From assembly GCA_003225075.1 (NCBI GenBank), contig QIAP01000079.1, positions 1-48,875 on the forward strand: a stretch of DNA of 48,875 nt, in the 5' to 3' direction. Numbering within the stretch: position 1 is the stretch's first letter; each line of letters starts with the position of its first letter. The notes beneath the pieces were generated by a model. That model was not told the origin of the DNA and made no database searches. It saw only the letters and a program-made list of their open reading frames with translations. A program made the translations under genes and the position numbers. Positions 16,928 through 45,338 of the stretch are shown in pieces. Origin of the DNA: Acidobacteriota bacterium (lineage in GTDB: Bacteria > Acidobacteriota > Terriglobia > Terriglobales > Acidobacteriaceae).

Positions 16928-17128
16928 ATGGAAACAGGAACAGTAAAGTGGTTTAACGATGCAAAGGGCTATGGGTTCATCAGCCGTCAGAACGGCGAGG
17001 ATGTGTTCGTTCATTTCTCGGCGATTCAGGCAGCCGGATTCCGCAGCCTGCAAGAAGGTCAGCAGGTGCAGTTTGACGTGGTAAAAGGCCCGAAAGGGTG
17101 GCAAGCCGAGAACGTAAAGCCTGTCTAA
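16928..17128 (+). CDS. csp: Cold-shock protein (CspA family)
   Basis: 66 residues from ATG 16928 ([18 protein letters not shown]). It is a single OB-fold cold-shock domain with RNP1 (KGYGFI) and RNP2 (DVFVHF), the standard length for the family. It binds single-stranded RNA or DNA and acts as an RNA chaperone. AAAGGA lies upstream. The gene is followed after 25 bp by a strong terminator, beyond which the selenoprotein peroxiredoxin starts only 30 bp later. Confidence 0.95.
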
Positions 17129-17153
17129 CTCCACGAGCGTTGAGAAACGCAAG

Positions 17154-17183
17154 GGGCGGCCGAAAGGTCGCCCTTAATTTTTT
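17154..17183 (+). terminator. Rho-independent terminator after the cold-shock gene
   Basis: GGGCGGCC (17154-17161), GAAA tetraloop, GGTCGCCC (17166-17173; one G-U pair), then TTAATTTTTT. It is a stable GNRA-capped stem. Since the next gene begins at 17214 with little room for a promoter, partial read-through may set its expression. Confidence 0.85.
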
Positions 17184-17213
17184 GATGTGGGATGACGAGG
17201 AAGGACGCGAGTG

Positions 17214-17702
17214 ATGCCGGTGAAAGTTGGAGACATGGCCCCGGACTTCGATCTGCCGGCGGTGACGGGCGATCAGAAGTTCAGAGTGAAGCTTAGTGAT
17301 TTTCGGGGAAAGAAACATGTTGTGGTGGCATTTCATCCTCTGGACTGGACTCCGACTTGAGCAGCGCAGGTGCCGGCGTTTGACTCCAACCGGGAGAAGA
17401 TGGCGGCACTCGATGCCCAGGTCGTGGACATCAGCGTAGATTCAATCCTCAGCCACCAAGCGTGGCAGAAAAAAGAAATTGGCGACGTCAAGCTGCCGCT
17501 GTGCTCGGATTTTTATCCACATGGCGAGGTGACACAGAAGTACGGCATCTTGCGCGAAGGGCCTCCGGTGCCGGGTATTTGTGAGCGGGCAGCGTTTATC
17601 GTGGATAAGAATGGGAAGATCGCGTTTGCCAAAGTCTATCCGCTGGATCAGTTGCCAAATATTGGGGAACTGCTGCGGGTTTTGGAACAGATAAATAGGT
17701 AG
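17214..17702 (+). CDS. Selenocysteine-containing peroxiredoxin (AhpC/TSA family, UGA-coded Sec49)
   Basis: 162 residues if the in-frame TGA at 17358-17360 is read as selenocysteine. ATG 17214 is preceded by GGAAGGA. The N-terminal [19 protein letters not shown] and [22 protein letters not shown] are classical peroxiredoxin; the next residue, the peroxidatic Cys of P-x-x-x-T-x-x-C, is the TGA. The frame continues without any other lesion through [23 protein letters not shown], the conserved Arg in [12 protein letters not shown] and a C-terminal helix. The enzyme would reduce hydrogen peroxide or organic peroxides. A potential SECIS hairpin follows the TGA, and selD is present at 44241-45338. 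A plain stop-codon reading leaves only 48 residues. Confidence 0.88.
17358..17393 (+). promoter_or_regulatory. UGA-Sec codon and potential bacterial SECIS of the peroxiredoxin
   Basis: TGA at 17358-17360. Downstream, CCGG (17373-17376) pairs with CCGG (17390-17393) and TT (17379-17380) with AA (17388-17389), leaving loop TGACTCC whose second base is G. The loop begins 20 nt after the TGA, within the spacing known for bacterial SECIS elements. The stem is short with a 2-nt bulge, so the structure is plausible rather than proven. Confidence 0.5.
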
Positions 17703-44240: not shown

Positions 44241-45338
44241 TTAAGGTGTCACCACGATGAGTGGCTTCTGAGTGGGCAAGACTTCCCCAATTTCGACCGC
44301 GGATACTCCGCGGCCCTTCAGAGCGCGGATTAGTTCCGCGCTATCTTCCGCGGCGACCGAGATCAGCAACCCGCCTACTGTCTGAGGGTCGAAGAACATA
44401 GTCTTCACGTCATCGGGGATTTTCGATTCGTAGGCTACGACACATTCGGCAAAATCGCGATTTGCCTTCAGACCGCCGGGAATGTATCCCGCGCGAACAC
44501 AATCCAGGGCACCCTCGAGCAGCGGCACAGAGCTGGCATGAAGGCGGAGACTCACATTCGATGCAAGTGCCATTTCGCGCGCATGGCCGATCAGCCCGAA
44601 GCCAGTGATATCTGTCATGGCGTGGACAGAGAACGGCTTGTCAGTCGGTCGCCGGTCGTGGCTGTTGCTGGCGGTTTGGGCGTCGCCGGTGATCACTTCT
44701 GCCGCGGTCTTGTTCAGGGTCGTCATTGACGCTACCGCACCGTGGATCCAGGATTGCTTAGCTGTGCCTTTTTTTATCGCTGTGGAAATTACCCCCGTAC
44801 CAAGAGCCTTTGTAAGTAGCAACACATCGCTTGGCTTGGCGCCGGAGTTTGCGAGTACGCGGCGGGGATCAATAAGACCTGTGACCGAATATCCAAACTT
44901 GGTTTCCTCGTCGCGAATGCTGTGCCCGCCGACTATCGTGCAACCGGCTTCCATCATCTTGGAAAGTCCACCGGCGAGGATACGTTCGAGAATATCCAGA
45001 TCGCCTTTCTCCGGGAAACAAACCAGCGCGAGAGACGTGAGCGGACGTCCTCCCATGGCGTAAACATCGCTTAGCGCGTTGGTGGCGGCTATCTGGCCGA
45101 AGGTGAAGGGATCATCCACGATCGGGGTAAAGAAATCGACGGTCTGGACGAGCGCAGTATCGGCTGAAATTTGATACACCCCGGCGTCGTCGGCGTGATC
45201 GAAGCCGACTAGGACATTGGGGTCATGTTGCCGGGCTAATTTCCCAAGCACCGCGTCCAGCGCCGCCGGACTCAGCTTGGAAGCTCAACCCGCAGCTTTG
45301 ACCGACTCCGTCAGCCGGAATGGCTTTACTTCAGGCAT
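44241..45338 (-). CDS. selD: Selenophosphate synthase SelD with UGA-coded selenocysteine (Sec18)
   Basis: 365 residues if the TGA at 45287-45285 is read as selenocysteine. ATG 45338 gives MPEVKPFRLTESVKAAG, then TGA, then ASKLSPAALDAVLGKL. In E. coli SelD the equivalent is Cys17 with Lys20; here Sec18 and Lys21 keep this U-x-x-K spacing. The rest is standard SelD: VQTVDFFTPIVDDPFTFGQI, ATNALSDVYAMGG, TIVGGHSIRDEETKFGYSVT, DITGFGLIGHAREM and FDPQTVGG. It makes selenophosphate from selenide and ATP. A strong hairpin follows the TGA. A conventional call would start at 45251 and lose the catalytic residue. Confidence 0.93.
45255..45287 (-). promoter_or_regulatory. UGA-Sec codon and potential bacterial SECIS of selD
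   Basis: On the minus strand: TGA (45287-45285), 13 nt, GTCCGGC (45271-45265), loop GGC (45264-45262), GCTGGAC (45261-45255). This is a 7-bp stem with one G-U pair and a G-starting loop that begins 20 nt after the TGA, which matches bacterial SECIS rules. Confidence 0.7.

Follow-up and report, generated by a model that had tools for sequence, protein, structure and literature searches.

The window analysed here is a stretch of 48,875 nucleotides, one entire contig of an Acidobacteriota genome of 4,789,841 bases in 259 contigs (97.6% complete). The features discussed below are as follows.

17197-17205, + strand: GAGGAAGGA, a purine-rich, Shine-Dalgarno-like stretch 5' of the start codon (assigned by eye; its role is inferred).
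17214-17702, + strand: peroxiredoxin gene with one in-frame TGA, 162 codons plus TAG (frame translation, Pfam).
17358-17360, + strand: TGA, predicted to encode selenocysteine as codon 49, in PLDWTPTU at the peroxidatic position (translation, homologue column).
17369-17410, + strand: P1, proposed spacer hairpin, outer helix 17369-17375/17404-17410 (minimum-energy fold; its register varies among relatives).
17412-17432, + strand: P2, proposed distal SECIS hairpin, GAUG(C)CCA-GGUCG-UGG(A)CAUC, loop 17420-17424 (folds, permutations, covariation).
44241-45338, - strand: selD (selenophosphate synthetase) with an in-frame TGA (profile match; start codon by eye).
45285-45287, - strand: TGA (selenocysteine) of selD; the proximal hairpin after it agrees with the published model.

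Read from the ATG at 17214-17216 to the TAG at 17700-17702, the frame contains a single internal stop, the TGA at 17358-17360, just as a first-pass annotation made from the letters alone had reported. With this TGA read as selenocysteine (Sec), the product is a 162-residue peroxiredoxin that includes HPLDWTPTU, i.e., P-x-x-x-T-x-x-U, and both the motif and the homologue column place the TGA where that annotation had put it, at the peroxidatic position of P-x-x-x-T-x-x-C. The Pfam AhpC-TSA match runs across the TGA (residues 5-138, 6.5e-32, 110.5 bits). Standard ORF calling recovers only 17370-17702, a 110 aa product from a GTG start, and the active site is lost, as had been foreseen. Ahead of the peroxiredoxin lies a cold-shock-type gene (16928-17184, + strand, identified by eye) with an inverted repeat and T run resembling a terminator on its 3' side, so the peroxiredoxin is probably transcribed separately.

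The source genome has selA (545 bits), selB (369 bits), selD (350 bits, located in the window) and a tRNA-Sec (70 bits; anticodon TCA by ARAGORN), each over its cut-off. The first-pass annotation had held that the absence of selB or selC would count against Sec; both genes are present. The selD of the window (44241-45338, - strand) is itself likely to encode a selenoprotein, via the TGA at 45287-45285, and its proximal hairpin reads GUCCGGC-GGC-GCUGGAC. TGA-bearing peroxiredoxin matches at E 1e-20 or better occur in 22 of 44 genomes having selB over the cut-off, compared with 1 of 17 genomes without it (Fisher p 0.0012); weaker TGA-bearing peroxiredoxin matches are also present beyond this threshold. 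The one exception, G029 (locus L046), has a TGA peroxiredoxin, a tRNA-Sec and a TGA-bearing selD, with selB not over the cut-off, perhaps through assembly loss. Two further peroxiredoxins of the source genome, L003 and L006, carry a TGA in this position as well. An Rfam group I intron match (959-1168, - strand; 52.5 bits against a threshold of 50) lies some 0.3 kb downstream of the L003 gene, the second TGA-bearing peroxiredoxin, and ARAGORN found no tRNA in that locus.

Homologues were gathered from three sources. Among 61 genomes (the source genome included), 29 gave a match at 1e-20 or better, yielding 46 rows in which the peroxidatic column holds TGA in 30, Cys in 10 and Ser in 6; all 46 were read, and each of the 30 TGA-bearing rows has exactly one TGA, always in this column. 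A phylum-wide search of 396 genomes, 43 of them with a match, added 27 genes; loci were read for 30 of its 44 matches, the remaining 14 being without a stop, and two of those 14 (G000:C108 and G007) were read from the 61-genome set. Named genomes supplied another 80 genes, the best 80 of 466 stretches confirmed in them and so nearest relatives only, and three further paralogues from the source genome complete a set of 156. Cultured bacteria with a homologous TGA gene include Schinkia azotoformans, Evansella vedderi and Neobacillus niacini, and P2 is perfect in the Neobacillus gene. In this set, which includes the best 80 of 466 named-genome stretches, the column holds 78 TGA, 71 Cys and 7 Ser, so the alignment that the first-pass annotation had proposed does place Cys or Sec homologues at the same column. 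Removal of one duplicate 90-mer took the set from 156 to 155 genes and the Sec genes from 78 to 77; the BCP-type gene L006, together with L129, L131 and L141, was retained among these 77 though it and they lack P2. Eight extra Sec genes stand outside the counts for the 77 and are included in the tree, in the residue-matched comparison and in the hairpin totals for 85 genes. The Cys genes that serve as controls tend to be more remotely related than the Sec genes.

In a tree of 163 rows, 15 changes are needed to account for Sec, and well-supported branches force no fewer than 7 of these; the Ser genes, 7 in all, fall into one group (98/63) within a Sec-containing clade. These Ser-type paralogues (L002, L060-L064 and L148) mostly have an altered Thr motif and are perhaps no longer peroxidases. 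The basal Ser gene, L060, has a TCA codon, one step from TGA, and 6 of 7 P2 pairs with AGGT; codon and relic hairpin suggest a change from Sec to Ser. The TGA-bearing peroxiredoxins L129 and L131 come from records labelled Bordetella parapertussis MAG, which look like misassigned bins.

With the T of TGA numbered 0, P2 spans +54 to +74 in this gene. In most Sec relatives +54 to +60 is paired with +68 to +74, and the hairpin presents an AGGUYNU end about 59 nt after the UGA. Its typical form is GAUGCCC-AGGUYNU-GGGCAUC in Acidobacteriota, GAUACCC-AGGUYNU-GGGUAUU in Bacilli and GACACCC-AGGUYCU-GGGUGUG in L003-type genes. At least 6 of the 7 P2 pairs can form in 68/77 distinct Sec genes vs 6/71 Cys genes of the nearest-relative set, and pairing over the 77-row Sec alignment reaches 89.1% of cells. 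Carriers with at least 6 pairs come from records of six phyla: Acidobacteriota, Bacillota, Chloroflexota (L091), Myxococcota (L113), Vulcanimicrobiota (L119) and Thermodesulfobacteriota (L133, by genus name). At indices 62-64 the Sec genes have G in 67/77, G in 73/77 and T in 77/77, a conservation that is in part that of a Val codon, which the GU of the loop opens. The P2 of this gene has one C-A mismatch and taken alone folds at -7.4 kcal/mol, compared with the published limit of -7.5, with 27/200 shuffles as good. Four Cys genes nested among Sec genes (L031, L039, L059 and L169) have 4, 3, 5 and 4 P2 pairs, and their Sec neighbours (L001, L040, L058 and L165) have 6, 6, 7 and 7; the fork that separates L039 from L040 has support of 92/90 and is not among the best supported in the tree.

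P1 occupies +11 to +52 in this gene and is less regular. In L003 it lies in the register +20 to +27 with +41 to +48, and in L204, which is L003-type, the distance from UGA to P2 is one codon shorter and both hairpins are kept. When 81 nt are folded at minimum energy, P2 is seen in 65 of the 77 Sec genes, a P1-like arm in 67 and the two together in 62; the figures for the 71 Cys genes are 4, 26 and 1. The full 81 nt of this gene fold at -35.4 kcal/mol (z -2.74, 0/200 shuffles as good). Five genes folded singly all form P2; L033 lacks the outer helix of P1 and L076 forms it only in part, and for L033 (-1.36) and L163 (-1.55) the whole-fold z is modest. A third helix in the fold of this gene, GCGC/GCGU closing around P1 and P2, was dropped since covariation there is absent. 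We also built a covariance model (R1) as a selenoprotein finder and rejected it: it also matches Cys and Ser homologues (44 matches in 76 loci that comprise 75 Cys/Ser homologues and one unrelated gene), and 12 extra matches that were read are peroxiredoxin or related thioredoxin-fold genes, some of them Cys. R1 matches are left out of the evidence.

The first-pass annotation had proposed 17358-17400 as the interval for a SECIS prediction. That interval folds no better than chance (z 0.76, 156/200 shuffles as good), and the structure proposed here extends to 17432. A scan of this gene found no proximal hairpin that fits the published model with an uninterrupted stem of at least 4, and Rfam yielded no SECIS family hit, either across the window with the gathering threshold applied or within 17300-17480 when E values up to 5 were allowed. 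A Sec peroxiredoxin with an ordinary, weak or unrecognised SECIS near the UGA, and with P2 serving another purpose such as ribosome pausing or efficiency, would account for some of the data. Positions +3 to +45 are slightly structured in the Sec genes (mean z -0.63 vs -0.11 in Cys genes), and an ungapped RNAalifold of 22 near Sec genes (z -1.97) places a weak hairpin by the UGA (-1.46 kcal/mol) besides P2 (-4.09), with nothing at P1. When hairpins, counted with stems of 4 and of 5, are required to have an uninterrupted stem and -7.5 kcal/mol or lower, 67 of 85 Sec peroxiredoxin genes have the distal hairpin, 4 a proximal one and 16 neither (this gene included). Two genes, L037 and L044, carry P2 plus a qualifying proximal hairpin, as that explanation would have it. 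The rarity of proximal hairpins (4/85 against 67/85), the loss of P2 in Cys genes and the genes in which a proximal hairpin stands in place of P2 all argue the other way, and we regard a near-UGA SECIS as improbable.

The genes with that replacement are L003-type sisters. L195 and L196 have 4 and 3 P2 pairs, respectively, and a proximal 8-bp hairpin, GGCUAUCA-GGC/GUC-UGAUAGCC, at the ordinary distance and at -9.8 kcal/mol. A third sister, L209, forms this proximal stem at only -6.5 kcal/mol and has a distal hairpin that is unrelated, and a fourth, L194, has neither hairpin at strength. The BCP-type genes L006 (TGA 1630-1632), L205 and L208 have a peroxidatic TGA and a proximal hairpin with a GUU loop, a second SECIS style in that group; the upper stem is at about -4.6 kcal/mol in L205 and L208.

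Genes with proximal elements give the reverse energy profile. The selD control, drawn from this set of genomes and run through the identical test, comprises 31 genes, namely 30 loci of 45 matches and the selD of the window. In its 24 Sec genes the mean z is -2.80 at +3 to +45, -0.99 at +12 to +52 and 0.08 at +52 to +77; in its 7 Cys genes it is -0.75 at +3 to +45 and -1.46 at +12 to +52. In a PrxU search the 12 TGA-bearing rows among 25 were read, and L259 was excluded from the mean because its TGA precedes the motif. Eleven genes, namely six PrxU genes that pass the cut-off and five further Sec peroxiredoxin genes below it, form 2-5 of the 7 P2 pairs, and 9/11 have a proximal hairpin with a 4-nt [AG]GU[CU] loop; their mean z is -1.11 at +3 to +45 and 0.20 at +52 to +77. 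A 7-pair P2 gene and a proximal-loop gene occur together in each of three genomes: G447 (L076, L254), G451 (L080, L261) and G453 (L088, L251). L251 has an extra in-frame TAA within the matched stretch.

The hairpins lie within coding sequence, and P1 and P2 might reflect no more than protein conservation and codon bias: the residues encoded across the P2 site, D-A/T-Q-V-x-G-I/V, are well conserved and the loop is partly a Val codon. Synonymous permutations, which preserve the protein and the codons of each gene, never reached the observed pairing. P2 with an AGGT loop is present in 61/77 Sec genes vs 14.6 expected (sd 2.9, maximum 24 in 400 permutations) and in 1/71 Cys genes vs 2.6 expected; synonymous codons are locked to preserve P2 at z 13-16. 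Taken by itself, the AGGT loop stands out less (65/77 Sec genes vs 51.2, z 4.1). A Bacilli subset, ten hand-picked rows of 12 Bacillota Sec rows, has 9/10 genes with at least 6 pairs vs 2.0 expected, and the two omitted rows, L095 and L101, have 7/7 pairs. When stem, loop and offset were scanned for helices at least 60% paired, P2 ranked first (z 12.4; the best in Cys genes was z 2.6), and P1 was the next separate helix, +15 to +20 with +44 to +49 (z 5.7), a fixed register in which 65.6% of the cells of the 77-row alignment are paired. Fold energy relative to synonymous permutations is lowered at both sites in Sec genes (z -2.03 at +12 to +52 and -1.98 at +52 to +77) vs Cys genes (0.04 and 0.02), with windows elsewhere in the Sec genes at -0.43 to -0.04.

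Covariation points the same way in part. Over the 77 Sec rows, changes on both sides of a pair were found in 123 cells vs 58.7 after shuffling (0/500; slid controls 17-84), with a covariation score of 0.264 vs 0.143. The number of pairs changed on both sides, 9 vs 7.5 (83/500; slid controls up to 10), and the number of further pair types, 25 vs 22.5 (41/500), are not clearly above shuffles. Where Gln is replaced by Glu (L163 and L092), the hairpin becomes GAUGCCG-AGGUCUU-CGGCAUU, so that a C-G pair turns into G-C and pairing is kept. Among residue-matched genes, at least 6 P2 pairs are found in 61/63 Sec and 0/3 Cys genes, the Cys genes being few. Given the permutations, the matched genes and the compensated pair, an origin of the hairpins as by-products of coding is very unlikely.

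The one same-genus genome searched, G001, has a peroxiredoxin 85% identical to this one, with the TGA kept. For this one genome pair (G000 vs G001) dN is 0.065 and dS 1.19 over the peroxiredoxin codons 3' of the TGA, and 0.115 and 0.81 over those 5' of it; the codons past the TGA are under purifying selection. A chance event or sequencing slip at the TGA is unlikely because G001 has the same TGA and 30/30 TGA matches are single and in the same column. That the gene is a decaying peroxiredoxin whose active-site codon has mutated to a stop, as the truncation by standard ORF calling might suggest, has virtually no likelihood in view of purifying selection on either side of the TGA, the same-column TGA in 77 further records among the 156 genes (including one duplicate), a frame without further stop and a complete Sec machinery, and the first-pass annotation had rightly thought random decay unlikely.

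That the TGA encodes Sec at the peroxidatic position is strongly supported at the sequence level because the machinery genes (selA, selB, selD and tRNA-Sec with anticodon TCA), the aligned TGA/Cys column and the Sec-specific RNA structure agree, which bears out the UGA-encoded Sec of the first-pass annotation. Our main reading, to which we give a probability of roughly 0.86, is that this gene encodes a Sec peroxiredoxin distinct from PrxU, in which the UGA is recoded via an in-gene SECIS made of two hairpins, P1 and P2. Computation shows that the TGA is conserved, that the machinery genes are present and that the two hairpins occur and are restricted to Sec genes; SelB would bind P2, P1 would serve as the spacer and the protein would act as a peroxidase. 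We consider it probable, with somewhat less assurance than the main reading, that the two hairpins constitute a second bacterial SECIS geometry, a spacer P1 at the ribosome entry followed by a distal GGU-loop P2 about 59 nt from the UGA. Judged from the sequences compared, the distal geometry appears so far only in this peroxiredoxin lineage, in records of six phyla.

In the proposed mechanism, SelB and Sec-tRNA would recode the UGA. P1, which starts at +11 in this gene and as late as +20 in L003, would form at the mRNA entry of the ribosome and remove about 30-40 nt from the path, so bringing P2 within reach of SelB despite the roughly 59 nt that separate it from the UGA, and P2 would then present its fdhF-like GGU loop to SelB. 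With P1 folded, the path from UGA to P2 loop would be 59 - 42 = 17 nt here and about 59 - 29 = 30 nt in L003, both inside 16-37. Because distal and proximal elements share genomes, a single SelB presumably recognises the two, measuring folded distance rather than the number of nucleotides. In the protein, Sec49 would attack the peroxide. T46, C/U49 and R125 are invariant in 17 aligned rows and P42 nearly so, and no second invariant Cys was found in these 17 rows; since a second Cys is not invariant, a one-Sec mechanism with regeneration by an outside thiol is likely.

If the element works, a search rule of 16-37 nt overlooks a selenoprotein family across several phyla, one whose active site standard ORF calling also removes, and it is folded geometry, not length in nucleotides, that limits the reach of SelB. 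Since related genes naturally differ in having the proximal or the distal hairpin, the distal SECIS reading is directly testable, and the question bears on Sec engineering, where the SECIS imposes changes near the Sec codon.

Among known proteins, profile matches were obtained to M. tuberculosis AhpE (Rv2238c, PDB 1xxu; 100.8 bits) and to the plant 2-Cys peroxiredoxin 5zte (115.7 bits). M. tuberculosis AhpE is a Cys peroxiredoxin, not a Sec one, and so has Cys at the peroxidatic position where this protein would have Sec. Relatives of this peroxiredoxin contain an SDFWPHG-type region, as does AhpE. The titles and abstract openings among the matches listed describe neither a Sec AhpE-like peroxiredoxin of Acidobacteriota nor a distal or two-hairpin bacterial SECIS, and any newness claimed here is confined to those listings. 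Sec peroxiredoxins were already recognised as a family, as the first-pass annotation had said, and those with TxxU are described in PMC1088965, PMC1794560 and PMC13188914. Its assignment of this protein to the PrxU type did not hold: the match to PrxU (NCBIfam NF040737), the type of the Eubacterium acidaminophilum enzyme cited in PMC13188914, is 86.7 bits against a curated cut-off of 270. PrxU-type enzymes share with this protein a peroxiredoxin fold with Sec in TxxU and, presumably, SelB-dependent recoding; they differ in that the six genes over the cut-off lack P2, the distal hairpin, and have a proximal one. What appears to be new on the sequences compared is thus the insertion signal, Sec peroxiredoxins themselves being already known.

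The E. coli fdhF SECIS, which has a bulged U17, carries the apical loop AGGUCU, which the AGGUYNU of P2 in Sec peroxiredoxins resembles. In PMC8659212, G23 and U24 of that SECIS are said to be fixed and its upper stem-loop is placed 11 nt from the UGA; the ribosome tunnel covers about 11 nt of mRNA according to PMC4513850. The bSECIS model, as given in PMC13188914, has a loop of 3-9 nt with an early G, 16-37 nt from the UGA, and -7.5 kcal/mol or lower; the same text notes that some bacterial SECIS elements misfit the model and that distinct classes exist. P2 shares with bSECIS a hairpin within the coding sequence 3' of the UGA and a GGU loop, and the loop of this gene, GGUCG, agrees with the rule of a G in the first two positions and 3-9 nt, whereas the P2 loop starts 59 nt after the UGA, not 16-37, and a second conserved hairpin lies ahead of it.
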